A DNA stretch of 64,000 nucleotides from Streptomyces akebiae (GTDB taxonomy: Bacteria > Actinomycetota > Actinomycetes > Streptomycetales > Streptomycetaceae), in the NCBI RefSeq assembly GCF_019599145.1, contig NZ_CP080647.1, forward strand, positions 2,294,001 to 2,358,000, given 5' to 3'. Shown here one piece after another: positions 9,552 through 52,416 of the stretch; position 1 is the stretch's first letter; every line of letters begins with the position of its first letter. A model generated the notes under the pieces. The model was not told the origin of the DNA and did not search any database. It saw only the letters and a program-made list of their open reading frames with translations. The position numbers were made by a program, and so were the translations under genes.

Positions 9552-10505
9552 ATGACCAGCAACGCACCCGGCAGCTTCCCCCACGTCCCCGGTCCTCGCG
9601 TCGGCCCCTTCGCGGCGGCCCTCGCCGCCGAAGTCCTCGTCCTCGACGGCGGTATGTCCAACCAGCTGGAGTCGGCCGGCCACGACCTGAGCGACGAACT
9701 GTGGTCGGCGCGGCTGCTCGCGGAGCAGCCGGAGGCGATCACCGAGGCCCATCTCGCCTACTTCGAGGCGGGCGCGAGCGTGGCGATCACCTCCAGCTAC
9801 CAGGCCACCTTCGAGGGCTTCGCGAAGCGCGGCATCGGGCGCGAGCGGGCCGCCGAACTCATGTCGCTGAGCGTCGAGCTGGCCGTCGACGCGGCGGTGG
9901 AGGCCCAGGCGCGGGGCATCACGCGCCCGCTGCTGACGGCCGCCTCGGTCGGCCCGTACGGGGCCATGCTCGCGGACGGCTCCGAGTACCGGGGCCGGTA
10001 CGGGCTGAGCGGGGCCGAGTTGGAGCGGTTCCACCGGCCCCGCCTGGAGGCACTGGCCGCCACCCACCCCGATGTCCTGGCCCTGGAGACGATCCCCGAC
10101 ACGGACGAGGCCGAGGCGCTGCTGCGGGCGGTCCGGGGTCTGGACGTGCCCGCCTGGCTGTCCTACACCGTCGCCGGTGACCGCACCCGCGCCGGGCAGC
10201 CGCTGGAGGAGGCCTTCGCGCTCGCCGCCGACGCCGAGGAGATCGTCGCCGTGGGCGTCAACTGCTGCTCGCCCGACGACGTGGACGGCGCGATCGAGAC
10301 GGCGGTGCGGGTCACCGGCAAGCCCGTCGTGGTGTACCCGAACAGCGGCGAGACCTGGGACGCGTCGGCGCGCGCCTGGACCGGGCGGTCGACGTTCACC
10401 ACCGAGCAGGTGGAGGGGTGGCGGGCGGCCGGGGCCCGGCTGATCGGGGGATGCTGCCGGGTGGGCCCCGAGGCGATCTCCGCCATCGCCAAGTCACTGG
10501 GCTGA
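9552..10505 (+). CDS. mmuM: Homocysteine S-methyltransferase
   Basis: 317 aa, TIM-barrel homocysteine methyltransferase (Pfam S-methyl_trans). It moves a methyl group from S-methylmethionine or S-adenosylmethionine to homocysteine to give methionine. The zinc ligands are visible: one Cys in VGVNCCSPDD (near residue 237) and the pair in IGGCCRVGP near the C-terminus. The N-terminal LDGGMSNQLE strand and ITSSYQATFEGF are also typical. Length matches MmuM (about 310). It has no cobalamin or folate domain, so it is not MetH. The divergent permease may supply its methyl donor. Confidence 0.9.
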   Translation: MTSNAPGSFPHVPGPRVGPFAAALAAEVLVLDGGMSNQLESAGHDLSDELWSARLLAEQPEAITEAHLAYFEAGASVAITSSYQATFEGFAKRGIGRERAAELMSLSVELAVDAAVEAQARGITRPLLTAASVGPYGAMLADGSEYRGRYGLSGAELERFHRPRLEALAATHPDVLALETIPDTDEAEALLRAVRGLDVPAWLSYTVAGDRTRAGQPLEEAFALAADAEEIVAVGVNCCSPDDVDGAIETAVRVTGKPVVVYPNSGETWDASARAWTGRSTFTTEQVEGWRAAGARLIGGCCRVGPEAISAIAKSLG

Positions 10506-10552
10506 CGGATCCGGGGCCTCCACCGTTCACCCGCTGCTAGCCTCCCTCCCGG

Positions 10553-10566
10553 GGAAACCGGTTACC
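10553..10566. promoter_or_regulatory. LacI-type operator, probable autoregulatory site
   Basis: GGAAACCGGTTACC: 7-bp half sites with one mismatch around a central CG. It lies 34 bp before the ATG of the LacI-family gene at 10600, the usual place for autoregulation. Confidence 0.55.
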
Positions 10567-10599
10567 GAGGTGGTGCCGAGAAGTGGGGCGGGGTGGCGC

Positions 10600-11676
10600 A
10601 TGACGAGGAAGAACGCGGACGGCGGCCGCAGCACGATCCGGGACGTCGCCGCGCGGGCCGGCGTCTCGGCGGCCACGGTGTCGCGGGTGCTCGGCGGGGT
10701 CTACCCGGTGAGCGCCACGACCCGCACGCAGGTGCTGCGGGCCGTCCGTGAACTGGACTACGTCGCCGACGCCCGCGCCAAGGCGATCGCCGGTGCCGGC
10801 ACCCCCACCCTCGGCTTCGTCCTCGACGACATCACCGGCCCCTCGTTCGCGCTGATGGCGCACGGTGTGGAGCGCGAGGCGACCCGGCTCGGCCATCTCT
10901 GTCTGGTGTGCAGCACCGACGGGGACGCCGCGCACGAGGCGGACTTCATCGAGACGATGCGGGCGCAGCGGGCCGCCGCCGTCATCCTGGTCGGCGGCGG
11001 CGCGGACACCCCCGAGTACCGGTCGCGCACCGCGCGGGTCGCCGACGGGCTGGCGGCCGCCGGGTCCCGGCTCGTGCTGTGCGGACGGCCGCCGCTGGAC
11101 CCCGGAGCGCCGGTCACCGTCATCGAGTACGACAACGAGGGCGGCGCGTACGCCCTGTGCGCGCATGTCCTGTCCAAGGGGCACCGGCGGATCCTCTTCC
11201 TCGGGGGGAAGCCGGAGCACACGACCGCGCAGGGGCGTGAGCGGGGTTATCTGGCGGCCCATCGGGCGCGGGGAGTGGAGACGGACCCCGCGCTGCGGCT
11301 GGCCGGGGACTTCACCCGGGACTCGGGGTACCGGTCGACGCGGCGGGCGTTGGAGGAGGGGCTCGACTTCACGGCGGTGATGGCGTCGACCGACATGGTC
11401 GCGGCGGGGGCGCTGACCGCGCTGCGCGAGGCGGGGGTGTCGGTGCCGGGGGACGTGTCCCTCGTGGGCTACGACGACATTCCGTTCGCGCGTGATCTGT
11501 ATCCGCCGCTCACGACGGTGCGGGTGCCGTACGAGGAGTTGGGGCGGCTGGCCGTGCGGACGGCGTTGGAGCGGGGGCGCTCCGCTGCCGACGAGCACTT
11601 GCTGCTGGGGACGCATGTCGTGGTGCGTGATTCGGTGGGGGCGGTGGGCGGGGGCGGGGTCGCGCCCGCGGGGTGA
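10600..11676 (+). CDS. LacI-family transcriptional regulator
   Basis: 358 aa. The N-terminal helix-turn-helix is STIRDVAARAGVSAATVSRV followed by a hinge helix ending ARAKAIAG. The periplasmic-binding-protein-like effector domain fills the rest, with VIEYDNEGGAYALCAHVLSKGH and SLVGYDDIPFARDLYPPLTTVR as conserved blocks. ATG 10600 is preferred over GTG 10570 because it puts the HTH at the normal distance from the N-terminus; the ribosome site is only moderate. The effector is probably a sugar, but no transporter or glycosidase is adjacent, so the target genes are unknown apart from likely self-regulation through the palindrome just upstream. Transcription ends at the hairpin at 11721. Confidence 0.88.
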   Translation: MTRKNADGGRSTIRDVAARAGVSAATVSRVLGGVYPVSATTRTQVLRAVRELDYVADARAKAIAGAGTPTLGFVLDDITGPSFALMAHGVEREATRLGHLCLVCSTDGDAAHEADFIETMRAQRAAAVILVGGGADTPEYRSRTARVADGLAAAGSRLVLCGRPPLDPGAPVTVIEYDNEGGAYALCAHVLSKGHRRILFLGGKPEHTTAQGRERGYLAAHRARGVETDPALRLAGDFTRDSGYRSTRRALEEGLDFTAVMASTDMVAAGALTALREAGVSVPGDVSLVGYDDIPFARDLYPPLTTVRVPYEELGRLAVRTALERGRSAADEHLLLGTHVVVRDSVGAVGGGGVAPAG

Positions 11677-11720
11677 GGTGCTCGGCCGGGTGCGGGCGCG
11701 TCGTGGCCTGACGCGCGGTT

Positions 11721-11745
11721 CCCCGCGCCCCTACGGGGCGCGGGG
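11721..11745. terminator. Bidirectional hairpin terminator
   Basis: An 11-bp perfect stem, CCCCGCGCCCC paired with GGGGCGCGGGG, around a 3-base loop, between the convergent LacI and ABC permease genes. There is no U-tract, as usual for Streptomyces terminators. Confidence 0.8.
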
Positions 11746-11762
11746 TGCTGGGCCGGCGGTGT

Positions 11763-12575
11763 CTACTTCGCGTCACTGTCGTACTTCGAGGTCGACCAGA
11801 AGTAACCGAGCACCGCGAGGCCGAGGCACCAGGCGACGGCGAGCCAGCCGTTGTGGCCGATCCCGGTGCCGAGGAGCAGTCCGCGCAGGGTCTCGATGGC
11901 GGGGGTGAAGGGCTGGTACTCGGCGATCGGCCGGAACCAGCCCGGCATCGTGTCGGCCGGGATGAAGGCGCTGGAGATGAGCGGGAGCAGGACAAGCGGC
12001 TGTGCGCTGTTGGCGGCGGCCTCGGCGTTCGGGCTGGACAGACCCATGCCGACCGCGATCCAGGTGAGCGCCAGGGAGAAGAGCGCGAGCAGCCCGAACG
12101 CCGCCAGCCACTCCAGGACCGAGGCGTCGACCGAACGGAAGCCGATGGCGACACCCACGGCGCCGACGAGCACCACGCTGGCCACGCACTGCAGCACGCT
12201 GCCGGCGACATGTCCGACGAGGACGGAGCCGCGGTGGATCGCCATCGTGCGGAAGCGGGCGATGATGCCCTCGTTCATGTCGGTGGCGACCGACACCGCG
12301 GTTCCGACGACGGTGCCGCCGATGGTCATCATCAGGATGCCCGGGACGATGTAGGCGATGTAGTCGGAGCGGTCGCTGCCGCCGATGCCCGCGCTCATCA
12401 CGTCGCCGAAGATGTAGACGAAGAGCAGCAGCAGCATGATCGGGGTCAGCAGCAGGTTGAGGGTGAGGGACGGGTAGCGGCGCGCGTGCAGGAGGTTGCG
12501 GCGCAGCATCGTGGACGAGTCACGGACCGCGAGGGCGACGGGGTTCGGGCGGGCGGGAGCCAGGGGGGCGCTCAT
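11763..12575 (-). CDS. ABC-2 type export permease (DrrB-like)
   Basis: 270 aa with six predicted TM helices, the ABC-2 membrane component of a drug or lipid exporter. A cytoplasmic N-terminal RRNLLHARRYPSLTLNLLLTP precedes TM1, and the conserved segment GIIARFRTMAIHRGSVL lies between TM2 and TM3, as in DrrB-type permeases. ATG 12575 overlaps the stop of the ATPase gene by four bases (ATGA), so the pair is translationally coupled. The substrate is unknown. The third gene of the operon encodes a DUF4097 protein, a combination common in Firmicutes and actinobacteria but of unclear function. Confidence 0.87.
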   Translation of the reverse strand: MSAPLAPARPNPVALAVRDSSTMLRRNLLHARRYPSLTLNLLLTPIMLLLLFVYIFGDVMSAGIGGSDRSDYIAYIVPGILMMTIGGTVVGTAVSVATDMNEGIIARFRTMAIHRGSVLVGHVAGSVLQCVASVVLVGAVGVAIGFRSVDASVLEWLAAFGLLALFSLALTWIAVGMGLSSPNAEAAANSAQPLVLLPLISSAFIPADTMPGWFRPIAEYQPFTPAIETLRGLLLGTGIGHNGWLAVAWCLGLAVLGYFWSTSKYDSDAK

Positions 12576-13540
12576 CGGGCGGTCTCCTTGGACTGGTTCG
12601 GCTGGGTGGGGACGTCGGTGCCGGTCAGGGCGAAGAACACGTCGTCGAGGTCGGGGGTGTGCACGGTGAGTTCGTCGGCCTCGATGCCGGCGGAGTCCAA
12701 CTGGTCGAGGACGGCGCGCAGTTCGCGCTGGGTGCCGCCGCTGGGGAGTTGCAGGGCGAGGGCCTCGTCGTCCCGGGTGACCTCGCGCAGCGCCGAGGCG
12801 GCGGAGCGGTAGGCGGCGGGGTCGGTGAAGCGGAGGCGGACGTGCCCGCCGGGTATCTGCCGCTTCAGTTGGTCGGCGGTGCCCTCGGCCGCGATCCGGC
12901 CGTCGTTCAACACGGCGATGCGGTCGGCGAGTTCGTCCGCCTCCTCCAGGTACTGGGTGGTGAGGAAGACGGTGACGCCGTCGGAGACCAGCTCACGGAT
13001 GATCTGCCACATGTTGTGGCGGCTGCGCGGGTCCAGCCCGGTGGTCGGCTCGTCGAGGAAGATGATCCGCGGGGCGCCGACCAGGGTCATGGCGATGTCG
13101 AGCCGGCGCTTCATGCCGCCCGAGTAGGTGGAGGCGGGCTTCCTGGCGGCCTCGGTGAGGTCGAAGCGCTCCAGCAGGCCGGCGGCGACCCGCCGCCCCT
13201 CCTTCCTGCTCAGGTGGTGCAGGTCAGCCATGAGGAGCATGTTCTCCTCGCCGGTGATCAGCCCGTCGACGGCGGAGAACTGCCCGGTGACGCCGATCGC
13301 GGCGCGGACCGCCTGCGGGTCGGCGGCGAGGTCGTGGCCGCCGACCCGGATCCCGCCGGAGCCGGGGCCCGGCGGGACGAGGGTGGAGAGGATCTTGACG
13401 GCGGTGGTCTTGCCGGCGCCGTTCGGGCCGAGCAGGGAGAAGATCGTCCCCTCGGGGACGGTCAGGTCGATGCCGTCGAGCACGACCTTGTCTCCGTAGG
13501 ACTTGCGCAGTCCGTTCGCCGCGATGGCCGGGGTGGTCAT
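12572..13540 (-). CDS. ABC exporter ATPase (DrrA-like)
   Basis: 322 aa. It has Walker A GPNGAGKTT, signature YSGGMKRRLD, Walker B IIFLDEPTTGLD and the switch His in TVFLTTQYLEEAD. The C-terminal extension of about 90 residues (VHTPDLDDVFFALTG) is the DrrA/NodI-type regulatory tail that closes ATPases of this subfamily. It pairs with the overlapping permease gene to form a drug- or lipid-exporting ABC transporter. ATG 13540 is preceded by GAAGGAG. The gene lies 42 bases downstream of the DUF4097 gene in the same orientation, so all three are likely transcribed from the promoter near 14293-14321. Confidence 0.9.
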   Translation of the reverse strand: MTTPAIAANGLRKSYGDKVVLDGIDLTVPEGTIFSLLGPNGAGKTTAVKILSTLVPPGPGSGGIRVGGHDLAADPQAVRAAIGVTGQFSAVDGLITGEENMLLMADLHHLSRKEGRRVAAGLLERFDLTEAARKPASTYSGGMKRRLDIAMTLVGAPRIIFLDEPTTGLDPRSRHNMWQIIRELVSDGVTVFLTTQYLEEADELADRIAVLNDGRIAAEGTADQLKRQIPGGHVRLRFTDPAAYRSAASALREVTRDDEALALQLPSGGTQRELRAVLDQLDSAGIEADELTVHTPDLDDVFFALTGTDVPTQPNQSKETAR

Positions 13541-40773: not shown

Positions 40774-41898
40774 TTACTCCTCCCCCTTCTTCACCGGAGA
40801 CCGCAGCCTCGACGTGACGTCCTCCGGCGGCAGGAAGCGGGACCAGCGTTCGGGGAACTCGGAGGGCATGTCGGGGTCCTCCGGGTCGTGGGAGCGGGCG
40901 GCGGCGGCGCGGGCGACGTACTCGGCGGCCTGCTCCTCGCGCAGGCGCTCGTTGGCGGCACGGGCGGCGGCCGTGGCGGCGGCGGGCCAGACACGGTCGA
41001 TCGCGGCGTTGACGGCGGCGCCGACGAGGACGGCGAAGGCGCCCACGCCGATCCAGAGCAGGACGGCGACGGCGGCCGCCAGGGAGCCGTAGATCGTCGC
41101 GCCCTCGACCGTGTTCGTCAGGTAGATGCGGAGCAGGAAGCTGCCCAGTACCCACATGGCGAGGGCGACCAGGGCGCCGGGGACGTCCTCGACCCAGGGG
41201 GAGCGGACCGGCACCGAGACGTGGTAGAGCGTGGTCAGGAAGACGATGGACAGGACGATCACGACGGGCCAGTAGAGGACCTGGACCACGGTCGCCGACC
41301 ACGGGACGATCCGGACCACGGCGTCGGGCCCGGCGACCATCAGCGGCAGGGCGATCGAGCCGATCAGCAGGGCCACGATGAACAGCAGGAACGCCATGAG
41401 GCGGGTCTTGACGATGCCGCGGACCCCGTCGAGGCCGTACATGACGGTGATGGTGTCGATGAAGACGTTCACCGCGCGGGAGCCGGACCACAGGGCGAAC
41501 AGGAAGCCTATGGAGATGACGTCGGGGCGACCGCCCCTCATCACGTCGTCCAGGATGGGCTGCGCGATCTGCGCGACGCCCTTCTCGGACAGGACGGTGC
41601 GCGACGCCTCCAGGAGGTTGAGCTCCAGGCTGGCGATGGTGTCGGCGCCGGTCCAGTCGTCGACGTAGCCGAGCAGGCCGATCATGCTGAGCAGCAGCGG
41701 CGGCACGGAGAGCAGCGTGAAGAACGCCGCCTCGGCCGCGAGGCCCAGGATGCGGTACTCGATGCAGGAGTTGACGGTGTCCTTCAGGAGCAGCCAGGCG
41801 GTCCTGCGCTTGGAGACGTCCCGGTAGAGGGCGCGGGCACGGTGGAGACGCCCATGGGGGCTCTCGGACGGTGGGGGTGACTGACTTGCTGGCTGCAC
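40774..41898 (-). CDS. YihY/BrkB-family inner membrane protein
   Basis: 374 aa with six TM helices. Family blocks are LGLAAEAAFFTLLSVPPLLLSM in TM1, GFLFALWSGSRAVNVFIDTITVMYG, PGALVALAMWVLGSFLLRIY and YGSLAAAVAVLLWIGVGAFAVL. A charged, Ala/Arg-rich coiled-coil-like tail of about 70 residues ends in PVKKGEE. BrkB/YihY proteins are widespread; once called ribonuclease BN, they are now thought to be transporters or envelope proteins of unknown substrate. Transcribed away from the NRPS cluster. Confidence 0.88.
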   Translation of the reverse strand: MQPASQSPPPSESPHGRLHRARALYRDVSKRRTAWLLLKDTVNSCIEYRILGLAAEAAFFTLLSVPPLLLSMIGLLGYVDDWTGADTIASLELNLLEASRTVLSEKGVAQIAQPILDDVMRGGRPDVISIGFLFALWSGSRAVNVFIDTITVMYGLDGVRGIVKTRLMAFLLFIVALLIGSIALPLMVAGPDAVVRIVPWSATVVQVLYWPVVIVLSIVFLTTLYHVSVPVRSPWVEDVPGALVALAMWVLGSFLLRIYLTNTVEGATIYGSLAAAVAVLLWIGVGAFAVLVGAAVNAAIDRVWPAAATAAARAANERLREEQAAEYVARAAAARSHDPEDPDMPSEFPERWSRFLPPEDVTSRLRSPVKKGEE

Positions 41899-42467
41899 GC
41901 CCTAAAGGTATCCGCCTGCGCGTGCCGCCCTCACCTCCCGGTGCCGCCTGCCGCGACAGGGTCCGCGTGCGACGCACGGTCCCCTCCGGTCGCGTCACGG
42001 GGCAGCAAACAAAGGGAAACCCAGCAGAAACCAAAGGTGATTCCGAATCGCCTTTTCTGTCATGAACGTGCTGGCTGAATCATCGAGGGGCCGAAAGCGG
42101 AGCGTGCGAGCGCGTTTGTGCCGTCCTTTTGGAAAGTTCCCCGCTGGAACGGTGCGGGGGCTCAGGTCCGACAGGCCGGACGAGATCGCAAAAGGGGCGG
42201 GAAAGAGTCATTTACCCGACCTCCCTTGACCGGTTCACGAATGTACCGAAAGAATCCGGATTGCATTCCGCTGCGCCTCTCTGGACCAGATGCCGGCCCA
42301 GCGCACACCAGGGAATCAGTCCAGGATCCGACCAGGCCTGATCAATTCCGCCACACCCGTCACCGCTTTCCGTTCCCGTCACCCTCCCCCCTCCTTCTGT
42401 CATTCCGCGCGCCGCCCCGTTCACCCCCGGGCGCCTTCCATCGCAATACCTGTCGCGGAGAAATTCA
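41899..42467. promoter_or_regulatory. Upstream region of the diaminopropionate NRPS operon
   Basis: 569 bp with no gene seen. Base composition is clearly lower in G+C than the surrounding genes, with several A-rich tracts. A perfect inverted repeat GATTCCGAATC lies at 42039-42049. A TTGACC box occurs near 42228, followed after 17 bp by AAAGAA, a weak promoter candidate about 215 bp before the start codon. The long leader suggests regulated expression of the operon at 42468. Confidence 0.45.
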
Positions 42468-44975
42468 ATGACATTGCCAGCGCCACGACCCGTGGCGGAA
42501 ATACCGGGCGAGGTCCAGGGGGCCGAGCCGGACGCGGCGGAATCGTACACCGCCGTCGAGCGACTCCTCGCCGAAGTTCTGGCCGGCGTCGCACACATCG
42601 AACACGTGCCCGCAGAAAGCCATTTCTTCGACGACCTCGGTGCCAACTCACTGACGATGGCGCATTTCTGTGCCCGCGTCAGAAAACACCCCGATCTGCC
42701 GTCGGTGTCCATCCGGGACGTCTACGGCCACCCGACGATCCGCGGCCTCGCCGCCGCGCTGACCCGGGCACCGGCGCCGGCCGCCCCGCCCGAGCCCGCC
42801 GAGACCGTGCCCCCGGGCAGCACGTTCCGCTATGTCCTGTGCGGTGTGCTGCAATTGCTCCTCTTCGCCGGATACTGTCTGCTCGCCACCTCCGGATACG
42901 TACAGGGGTACGAGTGGGTGGCGGACGGCTCCGGGACGTTCGGGATCTATCTGCGCTCGACCGTCTTCGGGATGCTCGCCTTCCTCGCCCTGTGCACCCT
43001 GCCCGTCGCCGCGAAGTGGCTGCTGATCGGTCGGTGGAAACCACGGGAGTTCCCCGTGTGGGGCCCGACGTACCTGCGGTTCTGGCTTGTCAAGGCACTG
43101 CTGCGCACCAGCCCGATGGCCCTGTTCGTCGGCAACCCGCTGTACGTGCTGTACCTGCGGGCCCTCGGCGCCCGCATCGGACCGGGCGTCACGATCCTCA
43201 GCCGCACCCTCCCGGTCTGCACCGACCTGCTGACCATCGGCGCGGGCACGGTGATCCGCAAGGACTGCTCCTTCCTCTGCTACCGGGCGCGCGCCGGACG
43301 CATCCGCACCGGCACCGTCACCCTCGGCCGGGACGCCTTCGTCGGCGAGCACACCGTCCTCGACATCGACACCGCCCTGGGCGACGGCTCCCAGCTCGGC
43401 CACTCCTCCGCGCTGCGCGCCGGCGAGTCCGTCCCGGCCGGAGAGAGCTGGCACGGCTCACCGGCCCGCCCGACGGACGTGGACCACATCCGGGTCCCCC
43501 CGCTCCCCCGCGGCACGCTGCGCCGGGCCGGGTACGGACTCGCCACCCTGCTCCAGACCCTGCTGCTCCACGTGCCGCTGACCATAGGCGGCGCCTATCT
43601 GCTGCTGACCGCCGCGCCCGAGCTGGACACCCTGCTCGACCGGACGTCGCGGCACACCACCTCGGCGCGTTTCTACGTCGAGGCGATGGCCCTGTCGCTC
43701 ACGCTGTTCGTGGCCTCGATCGTCGTCGGAGCCGTCGTGGTGTTCGTCGTACCGCGGCTGCTGCGCCCGCTGGTGAAGCCCGACCGCGTCTATCCGCTCT
43801 ACGGCTTCCACTACTCGGTGCACCGCACGATCGCCCGCCTGACGAACATCAAGTTCTTCACGTGGCTGTGCGGCGACAGCTCGTACATCGTCCCCTGCCT
43901 CACAGCCCTCGGATACGACCTCTCGCGCGTCGAGCAGACCGGGTCCAACTTCGGCACCGCGGTGCGGCACGAGACGCCGTACCTGGTGAAGGTCGGCAGC
44001 GGCACGATGGTCGCCGACGGCCTCTCGGTCATGAACGCCGACTACTCCGGCACCTCCTTCAGGGTCTCCCGGACGGCGATCGGCGGGCACAACTTCCTGG
44101 GCAACGCCATCGCCTACCCGGTCGGCGGCCGGACCGGCGAGAACTGTCTGCTGGCCACCAAGGTGCTGGTGCCCCTGGACGGCGAGATCCGCGAAGGGGT
44201 CGGACTGCTCGGCTCACCGCCCTTCGAGATACCCCGCTCGGTCGAGCGGGACAGTCGCTTCGACCATCTGCGCGAGGGCGCGGAACTGCGCCGCAGGCTC
44301 AGCGCGAAGAACCGCTTCAACCTGCGCTCGATGGCACTGTTCCTGTTCCTGCGCTGGCTGCACGCCTTCGCACTCACCGTCCTCGGCTTCGCGGCCTTCG
44401 ACCTCTACGGCCACGGCGACGGCCCGGCGGCACCGCTCGCACTCGCCGCGCTGCCCCTGGCGGCACTCGTCTTCAACGCCCTCTACTACGCGCTGGTGGA
44501 ACGGACACTGACCGGCTTCCGTCCCCTGCGCCCCCGGCTGTGCTCCATCTACGACCCCGTCTTCTGGCGGCAGGAGCGGCTGTGGAAGCTGCCCGACACG
44601 CATCTGCAGGTCCTCAACGGCACGCCGTACAAGAACCTCGTCTGGCGGCTGCTCGGGGTCCGGATCGGGCGCCGGGTCTTCGACGACGGGGCGTACATCA
44701 CCGAGCGGACGCTGACAGCCGTCGGGGACGACTGCACGCTCGCCGCCGGCAGCAAGATCCAGGCACATTCGCAGGAGGACGGCACCTACAAGTCCGACCA
44801 CGTCACGATCGGCACCGGCTGCACGCTGGAGGTCCAGGCGTTCGTCCACTACGGCGTGACGCTGGGCGAGGGTGCCGTGCTGGCGCCCGACTCCTTCCTG
44901 ATGAAGGGCGAGGAGGTGCCGCCGCACGCACGCTGGGGCGGGAACCCGGCGACGGAGACCACCGGAACACGGTGA
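42468..44975 (+). CDS. Carrier domain fused to Pls/PosA-type NRPS terminal membrane domain
   Basis: 835 aa. Residues about 28-100 are a phosphopantetheine carrier domain; the modified Ser is Ser61 in FFDDLGANSL. The rest has about six TM helices (first two near 118-145 and 160-190) alternating with soluble left-handed beta-helix (hexapeptide-repeat) segments: GARIGPGVTILSRTLP with LTIGAGTVIRKDCSF, the central SNFGTAVRHETPYLVKVGSG, and the C-terminal LGVRIGRRVFDDGAYITERT with GTGCTLEVQAFVHYG. This matches the terminal domain (TIGR02353 type) of epsilon-polylysine synthetase Pls and relatives, which join monomers without a normal condensation domain. Here no adenylation domain is attached; it is supplied by the next gene, 14 bp downstream. 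Predicted membrane-bound polymerising subunit. Confidence 0.85.
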   Translation: MTLPAPRPVAEIPGEVQGAEPDAAESYTAVERLLAEVLAGVAHIEHVPAESHFFDDLGANSLTMAHFCARVRKHPDLPSVSIRDVYGHPTIRGLAAALTRAPAPAAPPEPAETVPPGSTFRYVLCGVLQLLLFAGYCLLATSGYVQGYEWVADGSGTFGIYLRSTVFGMLAFLALCTLPVAAKWLLIGRWKPREFPVWGPTYLRFWLVKALLRTSPMALFVGNPLYVLYLRALGARIGPGVTILSRTLPVCTDLLTIGAGTVIRKDCSFLCYRARAGRIRTGTVTLGRDAFVGEHTVLDIDTALGDGSQLGHSSALRAGESVPAGESWHGSPARPTDVDHIRVPPLPRGTLRRAGYGLATLLQTLLLHVPLTIGGAYLLLTAAPELDTLLDRTSRHTTSARFYVEAMALSLTLFVASIVVGAVVVFVVPRLLRPLVKPDRVYPLYGFHYSVHRTIARLTNIKFFTWLCGDSSYIVPCLTALGYDLSRVEQTGSNFGTAVRHETPYLVKVGSGTMVADGLSVMNADYSGTSFRVSRTAIGGHNFLGNAIAYPVGGRTGENCLLATKVLVPLDGEIREGVGLLGSPPFEIPRSVERDSRFDHLREGAELRRRLSAKNRFNLRSMALFLFLRWLHAFALTVLGFAAFDLYGHGDGPAAPLALAALPLAALVFNALYYALVERTLTGFRPLRPRLCSIYDPVFWRQERLWKLPDTHLQVLNGTPYKNLVWRLLGVRIGRRVFDDGAYITERTLTAVGDDCTLAAGSKIQAHSQEDGTYKSDHVTIGTGCTLEVQAFVHYGVTLGEGAVLAPDSFLMKGEEVPPHARWGGNPATETTGTR

Positions 44976-44989
44976 ATCGGGGGAAGAAC

Positions 44990-47485
44990 ATGGGACGGTT
45001 GGAGCCGGGCGACGCTGCCCGGAAGTACTGGCACGAGATGCTCACCGCCGGGGGGCGGACCGTGATACCGCGGTGGAGTCCCTTCCCGGCGAAAGGGGTA
45101 GCCGCCCACGAAGTACCGCTGCCGGAGGGCCTGTTGACGGCTGCTGACGGCACGGCCGCGCTGCTCGCCGCGCACGCCAAGGTGCTCTCCGCGCTGTCGG
45201 GCGAGGCCGAGATCACCACCGGCTGGCTGGAGGACGGCCGGCTGCTGCCCTGCCGGCTCACCACCGCGCCCGGCGGCACCTGGCGCGCCCTGCTGGAGCA
45301 GACCCGACGGGCCACCGCCGAGCTGCTGACGCACGCCACGTTCCCGGTGGCCGCCCTGCGGCACGAACTCCGCCTGAACGAGTCGCCGTTCGAGACCGTG
45401 CTCGACACGAGCGGGGGCGACGGCGACCTCGACGAGGAGGTGGTCCTGCGGGTGGGCCTGGTGCACCGGGACGACGGTCCGGCACTGCGGCTGCGGTACC
45501 GCACGGACGTGCTCAACGAGGACGCCGCGGCCCGCGTCGCCGGGTACCACGTCACCGCGCTGACCCTGCTCGCCACCGAACCGGCCGCCGAGCACGGGCG
45601 GCGGAGTCTGGTCGCGGACGACGAACTCCGCCTCCAGCTCGACGGGTTGGCCGGGCCACGGCGCGAACTGCCCGACCGCCGGGTGCACGAGCTGTTCGAG
45701 CAGCGGGTGGCGGCACACCCGGACGCGGTCGCCGCCGTGCACGGCGACCGGCGCTGGACCTACCGCGAACTCAACTCCCGCGCCAACCAGCTCAGTCGGG
45801 CCCTGCTGGTCCGGGGCCTCGGCCACGAGGGCGTCGTCGCCGTGGTGACCGAACGCAACCTGGACTGGATGGCGGCCGTGCTCGCGGTGTTCAAGGCCGG
45901 CGGCGCCTACCTGCCTGTCGAACCGCACTTCCCCGCCGAGCGCGTCGCCACCACCCTCGCCCGCGCCGGCTGCGAGCTGGTGCTCACCGAGCGGGGCAGC
46001 ACGGCCACGCTGGACCGGGCCCTGGCCGCCCTGCCCGGGGTGCGGCGGCTGCTGGTCGAGGACGCCTACGACGAGGCCCATCCGGACTCCGACCTCGGCA
46101 TGGACATCGGGCCGGACCGGCTGGCGTACATCTACTTCACGTCCGGTTCCACGGGCGAGCCCAAGGGCGCGATGTGCGAGCACGCCGGGATGGTCAACCA
46201 CCTCCACGCCAAGCTCGACGACCTCGGCATCGGCGAGGGGGACGTGGTCGCGCAGACCGCGCCCCAGTGCTTCGACATCTCCCTGTGGCAGCTGCTGGCC
46301 GCGCCCCTGGTCGGCGGGCGGACGCTGCTCGTGGAGCAGGAGGTGATCCTGGACGCCGGGCGGTTCGTCGACCGGATCGCGGACGGCCGGGCGAACGTGG
46401 TCCAGGTGGTGCCGTCGTACCTCGAAGCGGTCCTCGCCCATCTGGAGCAGCACCCCCGTGAACTGCCCGACCTGCGCCGGGTGTCGGTCACCGGCGAGGC
46501 GCTGAAGAAGGAGCTGGCGGAGCGCTGGTTCGCCACCGAGCCGCGCATACCGCTGGTCAACGCCTACGGGCTGACCGAGACCTCCGACGACACCAATCAC
46601 GAGGTGATGGACCGCGCTCCGGAGGGGGACCGGGTGCCGCTGGGCCGTCCCGTCCAGAACGTCCGGGTGTACGTCGTCGACGAGCACCTCGCCCTCGTGC
46701 CGCTGGGCGCGCCGGGCGAGATCGTCTTCTCCGGGGTGTGCGTGGGGCGCGGGTACGTCAACGATCCCGAACGCACCGCGCGGGCGTTCACCACCGATCC
46801 GTACCGGCCCGGTGAGCGGCTCTACCGCAGCGGGGACCACGGGCGCTGGCGGCCCGACGGCAAACTGGAGTTCCTGGGCCGCCGGGACACCCAGGTCAAG
46901 GTGCGGGGGTTCCGCATCGAGATCGGCGAGGTGGAGAACGCCCTGCTCAAGGTGGCGGGCGTACGGGACGGCGCGGTGGTGGTCGCCCGGGGCGCGCGTC
47001 TGGTGGCCTTCCACTCGGGCCGGCCGCTCGCGGGCGAGGAGCTGCGGGACCGGCTGGCGGCGTCGCTGCCGGCGTACATGGTGCCGTCGGTGTTCCACTG
47101 GCGGGAGAGCCTGCCGCTGACCGCCAACGGCAAGACCGACCGGCGGACGCTGACCGCGCTGGCCGAGGAACTCGACGTGGTGCGGGGCGAGTCGGACGAG
47201 CCGCCGGCCACGCCGACCGAGGAGCGGCTGGCCGCCGTCTGGGCCGAGGTGCTCGGCGTGCCGCGGGACCGGATCGGCCGGCACGACCACTTCTTCGACC
47301 GGGGCGGCACCTCGCTGTCGGCGGTGAAGCTGGCGATCGCCCTGGACCGGGCGGTGTCCCCCAAGGACGTGACCGCGCATCCGACCCTGGCCGGGCTGGC
47401 CGGGCTGATCGACACGAGGGCCGGCGCGGCGGCCGCCGACGCGACGCCGCGCGCCGCCGCCGAGACCGTGGGGAGGCCGTCGTGA
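44990..47485 (+). CDS. NRPS: partial condensation, adenylation and carrier domains
   Basis: 831 aa, ATG 44990 behind GGGGGAAG. Residues about 1-215 resemble only the C-terminal half of a condensation domain (FPVAALRHELRLNESPFETVL, LRLRYRTDVLNED); the HHxxxDG catalytic motif is absent. Residues about 225-725 are the adenylation domain: A3 IYFTSGSTGEPKGAM, A4/A5 FDISLWQLL and NAYGLTETSDDTNHE, A7 YRSGDHGRW, A8 RRDTQVKVRGFRIEIGEVE, A10 LPLTANGKTDRR. Residues about 740-810 are a carrier domain with Ser in DRGGTSLSAVKL. It should activate an amino acid, most likely 2,3-diaminopropionate given the downstream genes. There is no thioesterase. The stop overlaps the oxygenase start (GTGA). Confidence 0.88.
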   Translation: MGRLEPGDAARKYWHEMLTAGGRTVIPRWSPFPAKGVAAHEVPLPEGLLTAADGTAALLAAHAKVLSALSGEAEITTGWLEDGRLLPCRLTTAPGGTWRALLEQTRRATAELLTHATFPVAALRHELRLNESPFETVLDTSGGDGDLDEEVVLRVGLVHRDDGPALRLRYRTDVLNEDAAARVAGYHVTALTLLATEPAAEHGRRSLVADDELRLQLDGLAGPRRELPDRRVHELFEQRVAAHPDAVAAVHGDRRWTYRELNSRANQLSRALLVRGLGHEGVVAVVTERNLDWMAAVLAVFKAGGAYLPVEPHFPAERVATTLARAGCELVLTERGSTATLDRALAALPGVRRLLVEDAYDEAHPDSDLGMDIGPDRLAYIYFTSGSTGEPKGAMCEHAGMVNHLHAKLDDLGIGEGDVVAQTAPQCFDISLWQLLAAPLVGGRTLLVEQEVILDAGRFVDRIADGRANVVQVVPSYLEAVLAHLEQHPRELPDLRRVSVTGEALKKELAERWFATEPRIPLVNAYGLTETSDDTNHEVMDRAPEGDRVPLGRPVQNVRVYVVDEHLALVPLGAPGEIVFSGVCVGRGYVNDPERTARAFTTDPYRPGERLYRSGDHGRWRPDGKLEFLGRRDTQVKVRGFRIEIGEVENALLKVAGVRDGAVVVARGARLVAFHSGRPLAGEELRDRLAASLPAYMVPSVFHWRESLPLTANGKTDRRTLTALAEELDVVRGESDEPPATPTEERLAAVWAEVLGVPRDRIGRHDHFFDRGGTSLSAVKLAIALDRAVSPKDVTAHPTLAGLAGLIDTRAGAAAADATPRAAAETVGRPS

Positions 47486-48564
47486 GCTTTCTGAGCCGTC
47501 GACGCGGCGGAGCGCGCCGCCGCCGCGGGGACACGGACCCCTCGACGCCGTCCCCGGCCGCCCTCGCCCTGCCGGACGTCGAGCTCTCGACCGACAAGCC
47601 ACCGCTGCTCACCGTCCGCCCCGCCGAGTCCGCCGCCCGCTGGGCGGCGGGACACCGCGGCGCTCTGCGGGCCGCCGTCGCCGAGCACGGCTCACTGCTC
47701 GTGCGCGGGCTCGGACTGCGCGACGCGCCCGAGGCCGGCGCGGTCTTCCACGAGGTGGCGGCCACGCTGACGACCGAGAAGGAGGCGTTCGCGCCACGCC
47801 GGACGTACGCGGACGGCGTGTACTCCCCGACGGCCTGGCCGCCGAACCAGCCGATGTGCATGCACCACGAGTCGAGCTATGCGCTGGAGTTCCCCGGCCT
47901 GATGCTCTTCGCCTGTCTGGGGGCCGCCGAGCGGGGCGGGGCGACCGGTGTCGCGGACGCCGAGGCCGTCCTCGCGGCGCTGCCGACCGAGTTGACCGAG
48001 CGGTTCGAGCGGGAGGGCTGGCTGCTCACCCGCTCGTACAACGACGAGATCGGCGCGTCGGTCGCCGAGGCGTTCGGCACCGCCGACCGGACGGTCGTCG
48101 AGGCGTACTGCCGGGCGCACGCCATCGAGTTCGCCTGGCAGCCCGACGGGTCGCTGCACACCCGGCAGCGGCGGGCCGCCGTGCTCCGGCATCCGGTGAC
48201 CGGCCGGCGCTGCTGGTTCAACCAGATCGCGTTCCTCAACGAATGGACCATGGACCCGGAGGTTCGCGAGTACCTGGTGGACCTGTACGGGGCCGACGGT
48301 CTGCCCTTCAACACGCGCTACGGCGAAGGCGATCCGATCGGCGCCGATGTCGTCTCGACGCTCAACGAGGTCTACGAGCGGCACACCGTCCGCACCCCGT
48401 GGCGACCGGGCGACCTGCTGCTCGTCGACAACATCCGCTGCGCCCACAGCCGTGAGCCCTTCGAGGGGCCGCGCGAGGTGCTGGTGGGACTCGCGGATCC
48501 GGTACGGCCGCAGGAATCCCTTGCACACCACTCCGACGTGAAGGACGAGGTGAGCTTCCGATGA
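47482..48564 (+). CDS. TauD/TfdA-family Fe(II)/2-oxoglutarate oxygenase (SyrP-like)
   Basis: 360 aa from GTG 47482, coupled to the NRPS gene. The first 40 residues are Arg- and Pro-rich and probably disordered. The metal site is visible as His128-x-Glu130 in QPMCMHHESSYALEFPG, with the distal His in NIRCAHSREPFEGPREVLVGLADP and its Arg for 2-oxoglutarate. HxE in place of HxD, and the surrounding sequence, match amino-acid hydroxylases such as SyrP and the dapdiamide enzyme DdaC, which act on amino acids held on a carrier protein. I infer beta-hydroxylation or epoxidation of carrier-bound or free diaminopropionate. Not required for simple poly-Dap, so it points to a modified product. Confidence 0.85.
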   Translation: MSFLSRRRGGARRRRGDTDPSTPSPAALALPDVELSTDKPPLLTVRPAESAARWAAGHRGALRAAVAEHGSLLVRGLGLRDAPEAGAVFHEVAATLTTEKEAFAPRRTYADGVYSPTAWPPNQPMCMHHESSYALEFPGLMLFACLGAAERGGATGVADAEAVLAALPTELTERFEREGWLLTRSYNDEIGASVAEAFGTADRTVVEAYCRAHAIEFAWQPDGSLHTRQRRAAVLRHPVTGRRCWFNQIAFLNEWTMDPEVREYLVDLYGADGLPFNTRYGEGDPIGADVVSTLNEVYERHTVRTPWRPGDLLLVDNIRCAHSREPFEGPREVLVGLADPVRPQESLAHHSDVKDEVSFR

Positions 48565-49601
48565 CCGAGGTTCCGGGTTTCGCCGTGATCTCCGGCGCCC
48601 AGGTGCAGCAGGCCCTGCGGGGCCGGGAACGGGAGATCGTCGAACTGGTCGAGTCCGCCTATCTGTTGCACGGCGACGGGGAGACGGGCGACACGGTCAA
48701 CCCGCCGTCGTACTTCCTCCGCTTCCCCGACCGCCCCACCTCGCGGATCATCGCGCTGCCCGCCTCACTGGGCGGGAGGTTCCAGGTGGACGGGTTGAAG
48801 TGGATCTCCAGCTTCCCGGAGAACACGGCGTCCGGGCTGCCGCGCGCGTCCGCCGTGCTGATCCTCAACGACCACGCCACCGGGTATCCGTTCGCGTGTC
48901 TGGAGGCCTCGGTCATCAGCGCGACGCGGACCGCCGCGTCGGCGGCGCTGGCGGCCGACCGGCTGAGCGCGCGCCGGGGGGCGCCGCGCCCGGCCCGGGT
49001 CGGCTTCCTCGGCACCGGCCTGATCGCCCGGTACGTCCACACGTACCTCGCGGCGACCGGCTTCGGCTTCGAGGAGGTGGGGGTGCACGACCTGGCCGCG
49101 GACAGCGCGACCGGGTTCCGGGGGTACCTGGAGCGGTCCGGCGCGGCCGGGCGGGTGACCGTGCACGACAGCGCCGAGGACGTGATCCGGGCGAGCGACC
49201 TGGTGGTCTTCGCGACGATCGCGGGCGAACCGCACATCCACGAACCGAAGTGGTTCGCCCACAACCCACTGGTGCTGCACGTGTCGCTGCGCGATCTCGC
49301 GCCCGAGGTGCTGCTCTCGTCGGCGAACTTCGTCGACGACGTCGAGCACTGCCTCAAGGCGAACACGTCACCGCACCTGACCGAACAGCTCACCGGCGCA
49401 CGGGACTTCCTCGACGGAACGCTCCACGACGTCCTCACCGGCCGGGCGACCGTGCCGGCGGACCGTCCGGTGGTCTTCTCGCCCTTCGGCCTCGGGGTCC
49501 TGGACCTCGCGGTCGGCGCACATGTCCACGAGGAGGTGGCCCGCTCCGGCGGACTACGGCTCGTGGACGACTTCTTCCACGAGCTGCGCCGCCACGGCTG
49601 A
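48561..49601 (+). CDS. sbnB: 2,3-diaminopropionate biosynthesis oxidoreductase, SbnB-like
   Basis: 346 aa, ATG 48561 coupled by ATGA. Ornithine cyclodeaminase/mu-crystallin fold. The N-terminal half has NPPSYFLRFPDRPTSRIIALPA and DGLKWISSFPENT (Lys in the substrate site). The NAD-binding region begins ARVGFLGTGLIARYVHTYL. In staphyloferrin B biosynthesis SbnB oxidises N-(1-amino-1-carboxyethyl)glutamate to L-2,3-diaminopropionate and 2-oxoglutarate; the sequence blocks and pairing with an SbnA-like gene next door support the same reaction here. The released 2-oxoglutarate could feed the adjacent oxygenase. Confidence 0.87.
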   Translation: MTEVPGFAVISGAQVQQALRGREREIVELVESAYLLHGDGETGDTVNPPSYFLRFPDRPTSRIIALPASLGGRFQVDGLKWISSFPENTASGLPRASAVLILNDHATGYPFACLEASVISATRTAASAALAADRLSARRGAPRPARVGFLGTGLIARYVHTYLAATGFGFEEVGVHDLAADSATGFRGYLERSGAAGRVTVHDSAEDVIRASDLVVFATIAGEPHIHEPKWFAHNPLVLHVSLRDLAPEVLLSSANFVDDVEHCLKANTSPHLTEQLTGARDFLDGTLHDVLTGRATVPADRPVVFSPFGLGVLDLAVGAHVHEEVARSGGLRLVDDFFHELRRHG

Positions 49602-49647
49602 CCGCCGGGCACAGCGAGTACGACATCGCACAACCAGGGGGGCAGCG

Positions 49648-50658
49648 GTGCCAGTCATATCCGTTCCCACGGACTTCAACGAGGAGGAGCTGTACGTCGA
49701 TCTGCGCCAGGTCGTCGGACACGGGCTCTTCCTGAAGTGCGAGGGGTTCAACTTCGCCGGCTCGATCAAGCTCAAGGCCGCGTCCGAGATGGTGCGGGCC
49801 GCCGAACGGGAGGGCCGTCTCGGGCCGGGCTCGACGCTCGTCGAATCGTCGTCCGGCAATCTGGGCGTCGCGCTGAGCATGATCGCGGCGAGCCGGGGCT
49901 ACCGGTTTCTGTGCGTGACCGATTCCCGGTGCAATCCGCAGACCCGGCGCGTGATCGAGGCGCTGGGCAGCCGGGTGCACGTCATCTCCGAGCCGGACCC
50001 GCACGGCGGTTTCCTGGGGGCGCGGATCTCGTACGTCCGCGCGCTGTGCGCCACGGATCCGCGGTACGTGTGGCTCGACCAGTACACCAACGAGGCGAAC
50101 TGGCAGGCGCACTACCGCACCACCGCGCCCGCCGTCGCCCGGCAGTTCCCGCGACTGGACGTGCTGTTCGTGGGGGTCGGCACCTCCGGGACGCTGATGG
50201 GCTGCGCCCAGTGGTTCTGGGAGCGGCGGCGCCGGGTGCGGATCGTCGCCGTGGACAGTGTGGGGTCGGTCGCGTTCGGCGGGGCGCCGGGTCGCCGGAT
50301 GATCCCGGGGCTCGGCACGAGCGTGACGCCGGCGCTCCTCGACGCGTCCTACGTCGACGACGTCGTCCGGGTGGAGGAGATCGACACCGTACGGGCCTGT
50401 CACCGCATGGCCCGCCGGGGCTTCCTCTTCGGGGGCTCCACGGGCACGGTCGTCAGTGGTGCCGGCGCGTGGCTGGCCCGCAACGGCTCGCCCGACACCA
50501 CGGCGGTGGCGATCTCCCCGGACCTCGGCGAACGCTACCTCGACACCGTCTACCGGCCGGGCTGGCCGCTGGAGCAGTACGGGGAGGCCGCGCTCGAACG
50601 GGAGGAGGAGTTCGGTACGGGCGGCCTGGGGACGGGCGAGCTCGCGGCGCCCGTCTGA
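49648..50658 (+). CDS. sbnA: 2,3-diaminopropionate biosynthesis PLP enzyme, SbnA-like
   Basis: 336 aa from GTG 49648, behind AGGGGGG. Fold type II PLP enzyme of the cysteine synthase family: PLP Lys in FNFAGSIKLKAASEM, phosphate-binding SSSGNLGVALSMIAASRG, the GVGTSGTLMG loop and GGSTGTVVSGAG near the C-terminus. SbnA joins O-phospho-L-serine and L-glutamate to make the substrate of SbnB. The gene follows the SbnB-like gene by 46 bases. Last gene of the cluster. Confidence 0.87.
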   Translation: MPVISVPTDFNEEELYVDLRQVVGHGLFLKCEGFNFAGSIKLKAASEMVRAAEREGRLGPGSTLVESSSGNLGVALSMIAASRGYRFLCVTDSRCNPQTRRVIEALGSRVHVISEPDPHGGFLGARISYVRALCATDPRYVWLDQYTNEANWQAHYRTTAPAVARQFPRLDVLFVGVGTSGTLMGCAQWFWERRRRVRIVAVDSVGSVAFGGAPGRRMIPGLGTSVTPALLDASYVDDVVRVEEIDTVRACHRMARRGFLFGGSTGTVVSGAGAWLARNGSPDTTAVAISPDLGERYLDTVYRPGWPLEQYGEAALEREEEFGTGGLGTGELAAPV

Positions 50659-50772
50659 GCCGGCCTCCGCGCTCCGGCGCCGGAGCGGTCCCGGTCCGGC
50701 GCCGGACACCTGCCCGCCGGATACTGGTGGGCGTCGCCGTGACGACGCGATACCGACGGGTAGGTTCCGGAC

Positions 50773-52416
50773 ATGGCATCCAGCACGCACGAAGTGACCA
50801 ATCAGGCTCCGCCCCTGGTGGACTACGACGTCTTCGCCGCCGACAGGGTCCTGACGGAGGCGGTCGAGCGGCATCTGGCGCCGGAGACGCTGGAGGAGGC
50901 GCGGAGCGAGCTGTCCGGCTTCGGCCGTACGGCCGGCTCCGCGCAGGTGCAGGAGTGGGGGCGGCTCGCGAACGAGAACCCGCCGAAGCTGCGGGCGTAC
51001 GACCGGTACGGGAACCGGGTGGACGAGGTCGAGTTCCATCCGTCCTGGCACCGGCTGCTCGGCAAGGGGGTCTCGGCGGGGCTGACGGCGGCCTGGACAC
51101 GGCCCGGCGGTCACGTGCGGCGGGCGGCGGCGTTCGTCGTGTGGACCCAGGTCGAGGCCGGCAACGGCTGCCCGCTGTCCATGACCCACGCGGCGGTGCC
51201 CGCCCTGCGGACGGACCCCGCGCTCGCCGCGGAGTGGGAGCCGCGGCTGACGTCGCGGCTCTACGACTGGGACATGCGCCCCGCCGACCGCAAGGCCGGC
51301 GCCCTCTTCGGGATGGGCATGACCGAGAAGCAGGGCGGCAGCGACGTACGCGCCAACACCAGCGCGGCGCGGCCGCTGGCCGAGGACGGGACGTACGAGC
51401 TGACGGGCCACAAGTGGTTCTGCTCGGCGCCGATGTCGGACGGGTTCCTGGTGCTGGCACGGGCTCCGGGCGGGCTGACGTGCTTCCTGGTGCCCCGGGT
51501 GCTGGCGGACGGCTCGCGGAACGTGTTCCGCATCCAGCGGCTGAAGGAGAAGCTGGGCAACCGGTCCAACGCCTCCGCCGAGGTCGAGTTCGACGGGACG
51601 TGGGCGCGCCGCGTCGGGGACGAGGGGCGCGGCGTGCGCACGATCATCGGGATGGTGGCGGCCACCCGGCTGGACTGCGCGCTGGGCGCGGCCTCGTTGA
51701 TGCGGCAGGCGGTGGCGCAGGCGGTGCATCACTGCACGTACCGGGAGGCGTTCGGCGGGCGGCTGGTCGACAAGCCGCTGATGCGGAACGTGCTGGCCGA
51801 TCTGGCGCTGGAGTCCGAGGCGGCGACGACGCTGGCGATGCGGCTGGCCTCGGCGTACGACGCGGCCGAGGCGGGCGACGAGAACGAACGCTCGTTCCTG
51901 CGGCTCGCGGTCCCGGTCGCCAAGTACTGGGTCACCAAGCGCTGCGCCCCGCTCGTGGTGGAGGCCTCCGAGTGCCTGGGCGGGAACGGCTACGTCGAGG
52001 AGTCGGGCATGCCACGCCTGCTGCGCGAGTCTCCGCTCAACTCCATCTGGGAGGGCGCCGGGAACGTACAGGCGCTCGATGTGCTGCGCGCCCTGCAGCG
52101 CGAACCGGGGGCCCTCGACGCCTACTTGCGGGAGGTGGGCCGGGCACGCGGCGCCGACCACCGTCTCGACGGCGCGATCAGGGCGCTACTGACCGAACTC
52201 GCCGATCTGGCCGGCGTCGAGGCCCGCGCGCGCCGGCTCGTGGAACGGCTCGCGCTCGTCCTCCAGGGCGCGCTGCTCACGCGGTACGCGCCCCCTGCGG
52301 TCGCCGACGCCTTCTGCGCCTCCCGGCTCGGCGGCGACTGGGGCACGGCCTTCGGCACACTGCCGCACACCCTGGATCTGGCCTCGGTGGTGGAACGGGC
52401 ACGTCCCGTCAGCTGA
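50773..52416 (+). CDS. AidB-like acyl-CoA dehydrogenase
   Basis: 547 aa, longer than ordinary acyl-CoA dehydrogenases (about 380) and matching the AidB/isovaleryl-type subfamily. FAD-binding blocks: GMGMTEKQGGSDVRANTSAA and GHKWFCSAPMSDGFLVLAR; later RLDCALGAASLMRQAV, CLGGNGYVEESGMPRLLRESPLNSIWEGAGNVQALDVLR. The C-terminal 110-residue extension is AidB-like. Relatives act on acyl-CoA or in alkylation protection. Own start 114 bp after the Dap cluster, so probably a separate unit. Confidence 0.88.
   Translation: MASSTHEVTNQAPPLVDYDVFAADRVLTEAVERHLAPETLEEARSELSGFGRTAGSAQVQEWGRLANENPPKLRAYDRYGNRVDEVEFHPSWHRLLGKGVSAGLTAAWTRPGGHVRRAAAFVVWTQVEAGNGCPLSMTHAAVPALRTDPALAAEWEPRLTSRLYDWDMRPADRKAGALFGMGMTEKQGGSDVRANTSAARPLAEDGTYELTGHKWFCSAPMSDGFLVLARAPGGLTCFLVPRVLADGSRNVFRIQRLKEKLGNRSNASAEVEFDGTWARRVGDEGRGVRTIIGMVAATRLDCALGAASLMRQAVAQAVHHCTYREAFGGRLVDKPLMRNVLADLALESEAATTLAMRLASAYDAAEAGDENERSFLRLAVPVAKYWVTKRCAPLVVEASECLGGNGYVEESGMPRLLRESPLNSIWEGAGNVQALDVLRALQREPGALDAYLREVGRARGADHRLDGAIRALLTELADLAGVEARARRLVERLALVLQGALLTRYAPPAVADAFCASRLGGDWGTAFGTLPHTLDLASVVERARPVS

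Follow-up and report, generated by a model that had tools for sequence, protein, structure and literature searches.

A Streptomyces gene cassette that may load and oxidise diaminopropionate on one carrier and pass it to a separate Pls-type membrane domain

A stretch of 64,000 nucleotides (nt) from Streptomyces akebiae (NZ_CP080647.1, positions 2,294,001 to 2,358,000; hereafter the window) carries a cassette of five closely spaced genes, all on the + strand at 42468-50658, in the order TERM>A-PCP>TauD>SbnB>SbnA. TERM has a carrier domain (PCP1) and a membrane terminal domain of the Pls/PosA family, A-PCP has an adenylation (A) domain and a carrier of its own (PCP2), TauD is an oxygenase, and SbnB and SbnA belong to the synthesis of L-2,3-diaminopropionate (Dap). 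We propose that the cassette is a two-carrier version of a Pls-type synthetase, in which Dap is loaded, modified and then transferred, and we put the chances of this reading at about even. SbnA and SbnB would make Dap, and the A domain of A-PCP would adenylate it and load it on PCP2. The TauD-type oxygenase would oxidise the tethered residue, most likely at C-beta, by hydroxylation or desaturation. The residue would then pass from PCP2 to PCP1, by means of a thioesterase-type domain acting as an aminoacyl shuttle where one is present, and by another route in the clade of the window. The membrane terminal domain would join the residues via the side-chain or the alpha amine into a short polymer, an oligomer or an amide, which would be handed across the membrane. 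The proposal starts from domains with intact active-site motifs and from the conservation and co-variation of the cassette, as read in the sequences; from these we infer the oxidation on the carrier, the transfer between carriers and the product.

The cassette is widespread in Streptomyces. TERM was used as a query against 394 genomes of the family Streptomycetaceae, and the stronger matches were of two sorts: a close group with 52-89% identity, mostly in frames of 810-1200 amino acids (aa), and fused Pls-type enzymes with about 30% identity and about 1300 aa or more. From the close group we took 90 distinct places, called G-loci below; L046 was dropped as a duplicate of L072, and a broken copy in genome G338 was left out. 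By hand count, these places belong to 80 genomes, of which 78 have the split form; with the window's genome added, a split TERM is present in 79/394 sampled genomes of the family (about a fifth). All five genes are found in 77/90 G-loci. The order is that of the window in 74 of these 77, and the other three have SbnA upstream on the other strand. By the probes used, 11 places show TERM alone, of which two (L051 and L052) are fused enzymes and nine are solo TERM genes; L066 holds TERM and an A gene that is cut off by the end of the contig. Among named genomes, a scan found 24 loci, including those of S. scabiei 87.22, other scab-group species, S. atratus, S. achromogenes and S. gelaticus, and the full cassette is present in the same order in 24/24. 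Some of these are probably the same genomes as those of G-loci (e.g. L068 and L147), so the two sets are not independent. With five genes together in 77/90 related places and in 24/24 named loci, the cassette is not a chance arrangement, and the search for other loci with terminal and A domains on separate genes, which had been suggested by an initial annotation of the window, has found them. At 1e-100, six of 396 sampled genomes from the phylum had a match, and four of the six, the window's genome among them, belong to Streptomyces.

Residues 124-828 of TERM match TIGR02353 (Pls/PosA) with 778.4 bits against a cut-off of 423.1, and PCP1 is matched by PF00550 at residues 33-98. The initial annotation had described a carrier followed by a Pls-like domain with several transmembrane segments, and the curated models bear this out; judged by its sequence, the domain is not an ordinary acyltransferase unrelated to Pls. 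It has seven hydrophobic peaks, two of them overlapping, around three soluble repeats. The first and third repeats (C1 and C3) are 30% identical (E 9e-15), while the middle repeat is weakly supported (C1/C2, E 0.003; C2/C3, E 0.24). Residues H767, E770, D771, K775, K813 and E815 are identical in 120/120 aligned sequences, which comprise 114 split and four canonical fused sequences together with L051 and L052. A search of solved structures with TERM gave six matches, all of them carrier or hexapeptide proteins.

The A domain of A-PCP (PF00501, 269.9 bits) comprises residues 236-589, and PCP2 (PF00550, 43 bits) comprises residues 745-807. When aligned with condensation domains encoded in the same genome, residues 7-217 match their C-terminal lobe (hhalign probability 98.5). 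The HHxxxDG motif is absent from the N-terminal regions of all 100 A proteins examined, the window's included, and a Pfam search found no thioesterase match in the window's own A-PCP. The protein had been annotated as half-condensation, adenylation and carrier domains without HHxxxDG or thioesterase, and these results agree. By pattern, the carrier motif GGTS is found in 94/102 A frames. The pocket code of the A domain is DIWQSTADDK in the window and in 99 relatives; one relative has DIWQCTADDK and one is cut off. Position 3 is Trp in the window and in 101/101 aligned relatives. Dap equals Ser in size but its side chain is charged, and the pocket to be expected would therefore resemble that for Ser, with an additional Asp. 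The code has 4/10 positions in common with the Ser code DVWHFSLVDK, read from E. coli EntF, and 6/10 with DVWQMIGDDK, a published code that stands in a paragraph on 2,4-diaminobutyrate (Dab) and is said there to go with beta-OH (PMC12283262). A search of open-access papers for the code string gave no match. A pocket of diamino-acid type is well supported.

SbnB matches TIGR03944 with 401.5 bits (cut-off 326.9) and is the one SbnB match in the window's genome, and SbnA matches TIGR03945 with 388.3 bits (cut-off 349.95); both are thus above the NCBIfam equivalog cut-offs, in keeping with the Dap-forming role first assigned to them. Of the 78 G-loci with both TERM and A, 77 also have these two genes, and the remaining one is truncated by the end of its contig. 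We therefore consider Dap, supplied by SbnA and SbnB, to be a well supported substrate. In the open reading frame (ORF) from ATG 49522, the TIGR03945 match begins at residue 52, and a purine-rich stretch lies just upstream of GTG 49648, so GTG 49648 is the likely start of SbnA. This start is not settled, as the match begins at residues 38-43 in many relatives and reaches back to residues 1-6 in others.

The third gene had been called an oxygenase, and its match to PF02668 (143.9 bits) confirms the assignment. Residues H128, E130, H322 and R331 are invariant in 25 sequences and, from alignment to 1y0z and knowledge of the family, are likely the metal and 2-oxoglutarate ligands. The nearest solved relative, both by sequence and by the structure model, is 1y0z (At3g21360), which leads the fold search and is followed by TauD-type enzymes; 9yut is not among the best 50 matches listed. 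The enzyme may be of the SyrP type.

Several observations tie the oxygenase to the A protein. A TauD frame is found in 101/101 A-holding loci among L035-L158, a set chosen through TERM, and in five of these (L048, L105, L107, L110 and L122; L048 also by Pfam) A-PCP and TauD form one unbroken frame. On a Kitasatospora plasmid (L182), an A homologue (57% identical over the aligned part, code DIWQATCDDK) has a TauD immediately after it, with 53% identity to that of the window, and a TERM was not found in its 26-kb stretch. Across 99 loci, distances co-vary between all five proteins, and of the ten pairs A/TauD has the highest correlation (r 0.833). In a permutation test, with species relatedness not removed, 0/500 permutations reached r for any pair. 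Together these data suggest that oxygenase and A protein belong together, apart from exceptions that are given below. The A-protein family of L182 and of a second plasmid relative, L181 (code DIWQSTADDK), stands beside genes for a PLP enzyme, an ATP-grasp protein, a lyase and a GHMP kinase; the PLP enzyme, lyase and kinase may constitute another route to Dap. Among further A copies, L160 belongs to another full cassette with SbnA on the other strand. The codes are DIWQSTADDK in L159 and L160 and DIWQSTTDDK in L161, and the extra copy in L159 adjoins an ion-channel-like gene.

In the papers surveyed, a cationic homopolymer synthetase is a single chain that includes its A domain, and the initial annotation had regarded the cassette as a two-subunit version of Pls. 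Part of this holds. The terminal domain is of the Pls/PosA kind, and it is encoded apart from the A domain; TERM and the cassette A domain never share a frame (115 frames with TERM and 101 with A were compared). A fused ancestry is suggested by a phylogeny of 48 terminal domains (eight fused, nine solo, L051 and L052, and 29 further split rows, the window included), in which the eight fused rows lie on one side of a branch with support 100/100, and the split rows lie on the other together with L051 and L052, whose placement within that side was not resolved; the tree came with long-branch warnings. These two are themselves fused A-PCP-TERM enzymes, with the Dap/Dab-like code DFECLSVVTK, which makes it quite plausible that the split TERM derives from a fused ancestor. 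In L051 a class-III aminotransferase gene (L051:10009-11268) comes directly after the fused enzyme and possibly supplies Dab.

The A protein does not fit a Pls that was simply cut in two. It is 32-38% identical to a fused A domain and has its own carrier, a half-condensation domain and often a thioesterase-type domain. The fused A domains, with codes DFE... or DAE..., have Glu at code position 3 in 12/12, a residue that is conserved in the fused Pls-type family (PMC10522769) and absent from the cassette protein. By sequence, the cassette A protein is of another lineage than the A domains of fused enzymes. The window's genome also encodes a fused enzyme, whose code DAESIGTVVK we read as Lys-type, following the Ala at position 2 for Lys in PMC10522769. 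TERM keeps a carrier too, so that two carriers and a transfer step need to be explained. The earlier interpretation is thus partly supported, being right on the domain family and the Dap supply, wrong on the nature of the split and unproven on the product.

Two carriers imply either a transfer or two loadings. A-PCP is a stand-alone adenylation-thiolation (A-T) protein, and PCP1, on a TERM without its own A domain, is the putative acceptor. A thioesterase-type domain follows the carrier of A-PCP in 39/77 full G-loci and in 12/24 named loci, and 50/51 of these domains have GHSSG or GHSAG (GHSxG), the match in L099 and L105 covering only part of the domain. Proteins of the alpha/beta-hydrolase type can move aminoacyl groups between carriers, as described for LgnA (PMC8748450), CysB (PMC7966384) and SyrC (PMC8949500). 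The nine solo TERM genes have no A gene nearby, and eight of them are in genomes that also encode a cassette A protein, which fits loading in trans. One solo TERM (L053:6101-9271) has three consecutive carrier domains, and another (L041:6631-8816 and 9941-12610) has a DyP-type peroxidase gene and a gene for a shell protein of the encapsulin type in its vicinity.

A comparable partition of labour is known from assembly lines. In CysH/CysJ/CysB (PMC7966384), SyrB1/SyrB2/SyrC (PMC8949500) and LgnB/LgnA (PMC8748450), a stand-alone A-T protein is served by an alpha/beta-hydrolase shuttle to a second carrier, and CysJ of cystobactamid synthesis is an Fe/2-oxoglutarate enzyme, likened to SyrP, that oxidises its substrate on the carrier (PMC7966384), a step that the cassette oxygenase would share. 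The acceptor in those systems is a condensation-domain assembly line, whereas in the cassette it would be a Pls-type membrane domain. Pls, PosA and the poly-Dap synthetase (PDAPs) resemble the cassette in the carrier followed by a membrane terminal domain, in the invariant C-terminal motif and in the cationic amino acid theme; the cassette differs in having no A domain on the TERM chain, an A domain of another lineage and code, a second carrier and an oxygenase. The poly-Dap pathway of S. albulus (PDAPs, NjxA/NjxB) likewise obtains Dap from two enzymes of the SbnA/SbnB kind and uses a Pls-type terminal domain, but its A, PCP and terminal domains are in one 4,338-bp gene, to which the Dap genes are not close (PMC4668381); the word dioxygenase was not found in the accessible text of that paper. 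A comb-like Dap polymer (Takehara 2021) is cited in PMC10522769. The SbnA and SbnB pair recalls staphyloferrin B, but no siderophore synthetase is present among the annotated neighbours of the cassette. No description of a split Pls, or of a load-oxidise-transfer route that feeds a Pls-type domain, was found in a search of open-access papers. A broader proposal is that the cassettes represent a new class of membrane polymer synthetase. Here one carrier would serve for loading and oxidation of an amino acid, which would then be delivered in trans to one or several Pls-type terminal proteins, including solo and repeated TERM, to give undescribed oxidised Dap polymers or oligomers; we consider this less likely than not.

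Other explanations have to be weighed against the two-carrier reading. The A domain could load Dap directly on the TERM carrier to give unmodified poly-Dap, with the oxygenase tailoring the finished chain or being a side activity. A true TIGR02353 domain beside Dap genes would fit this, as would the two fused Dap/Dab-type enzymes on the split side of the tree, the TERM/A pair of L161 that has no oxygenase, and the fact that poly-Dap is a known Streptomyces polymer (PMC4668381). However, the A protein retains its own carrier with GGTS, its code is unlike that of the fused Dap-type enzymes, and the oxygenase shares a frame with A in 5/101 loci and stands beside A in L182, where TERM is absent. 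We consider this explanation unlikely. Likewise, the unmodified Dap homopolymer that the initial annotation had offered as a product is not favoured, because an oxygenase frame accompanies A in every A-holding locus of L035-L158; it is absent beside the extra A copies L159 and L161.

A small molecule is about as improbable in our estimate, though a little less so. Here TERM would carry out amide formation and export a single time or a few times, and the product would be a small Dap dipeptide, an amide or a metal-binding molecule. A defined small molecule would suit a system with two carriers and an oxygenase, the repetition of TERM/A-PCP units in L191 hints that each unit accounts for one residue, and in L182 the A/TauD pair recurs next to ordinary condensation domains. 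In addition, an SbnB homologue of S. scabies is reported among proteins detected with potato microtubers, and siderophore proteins were found in the same study (PMC11479980). On the other side, the annotated neighbours of the cassette include no siderophore synthetase, the best iron-box match within 41500-51000 is 11/19, and the enzymes with this terminal domain whose characterisation is described in PMC4668381 and PMC10522769 make polymers. An iron-regulated siderophore operon was set aside on the first two of these grounds and is kept only within the small-molecule explanation. The A domain might also activate serine or Dab, with Dap serving only as the acceptor. The positions shared with EntF and the place of DVWQMIGDDK in a Dab paragraph (PMC12283262) could be read in this way, but the second acidic pocket residue suits a charged side chain and SbnA and SbnB accompany the A protein almost without exception, so that we regard such a substrate as very improbable.

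The two-carrier reading itself has several points against it. The structure model of TERM is poor (mean predicted local distance difference test score, pLDDT, 48.7) and that of TauD is mediocre (mean pLDDT 63.9). Beta-hydroxylated Dap would be a chemically unstable aminol, which leaves the oxidation product uncertain. The thioesterase-type domain is missing from the window's A-PCP, from its clade and from about half of the relatives, so in the window the shuttle step has no assigned enzyme. As the loci were found through TERM, the co-occurrence is biased. There are also exceptions in gene content: in L161, TERM and A are present, and TauD, SbnB and SbnA are absent from the 18.5-kb stretch; in L159, A and SbnA are present, and TauD, SbnB and TERM are absent from the stretch covered; and L181 has A but no TauD or TERM in the stretch covered. 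Loading in trans fits neither L069, which has TERM, TauD, SbnB and SbnA while its genome has no A protein of the same family, nor L116, whose solo TERM belongs to a genome that likewise lacks the A protein.

If the two-carrier reading is correct, a terminal domain that receives a modified monomer in trans does not depend on being coupled to its A domain, and polymers or oligomers of a new group are to be expected. The cassette is a natural set of parts with which the uptake of the donor by the terminal domain could be examined. Judging by their genes, many Streptomyces hold a cassette apparently able to make, load and oxidise Dap and then pass it to a membrane enzyme related to the one that makes poly-lysine, a food preservative. 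There is also a sign of expression. An SbnB homologue of S. scabies (C9YUJ1), beside sbnA and a nonribosomal peptide synthetase gene, is among the secondary-metabolism proteins found with potato microtubers (PMC11479980). S. scabiei 87.22 has one SbnB above the curated cut-off, located in the five-gene cassette, so C9YUJ1 would be this protein; this suggests that the cassette is expressed in S. scabies and has no bearing on a role in disease.

The features of the cassette are listed in Table 1. As initially annotated, the five genes are on one strand and mostly coupled, with a gap of 14 nt between TERM and A-PCP and 4-nt overlaps at A-PCP/TauD and TauD/SbnB. The promoter-like block is conserved in the window and nine named relatives, though some bases vary; a match to the consensus alone is not evidence of function.

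Table 1 Features of the cassette in the window.
Feature	Position	Strand	Basis
Promoter-like block TTGACC, 18 nt, AAGAAT, 5' of TERM	42226-42255	+	Alignment of the window and 9 named relatives
TERM, 835 aa: PCP1 (nt 42564-42761), Pls/PosA terminal domain (nt 42837-44951)	42468-44975	+	TIGR02353, PF00550
A-PCP, 831 aa: C-terminal half-condensation (about nt 45008-45640), A domain (45695-46756), PCP2 (47222-47410)	44990-47485	+	PF00501, PF00550, hhalign, code
TauD-type Fe(II)/2-oxoglutarate oxygenase, 360 aa	47482-48564	+	PF02668
SbnB-type enzyme, 346 aa, Dap synthesis	48561-49601	+	TIGR03944
SbnA-type PLP enzyme, 336 aa from likely GTG start; ORF opens 49522	49648-50658	+	TIGR03945

A small upstream ORF (42118-42471) was considered as a sixth gene and set aside, as its divergence is equal at the three codon positions; it is probably non-coding. 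AidB-like and BrkB genes flank only a subset of loci and were not counted as members. L046 appeared to lack A owing to the edge of its stretch, and L072 covers the same TERM with a whole cassette. In this locus (L046, 45-4247 and 17466-19994) the full split cassette and a fused synthetase, whose code is DFEYVGTVTK, are about 13 kb apart. In genome G402, from another family (L191, 1-7716, and L192), units of TERM, A-PCP and TauD are repeated on one short contig, and more TERM pieces lie beside an SbnA gene on another contig. Downstream of the cassette in the window, segment 56613-60871 encodes a nitrite/sulfite reductase-type protein and two proteins with a phosphoadenosine phosphosulfate (PAPS) reductase domain, perhaps a sulfate assimilation set.

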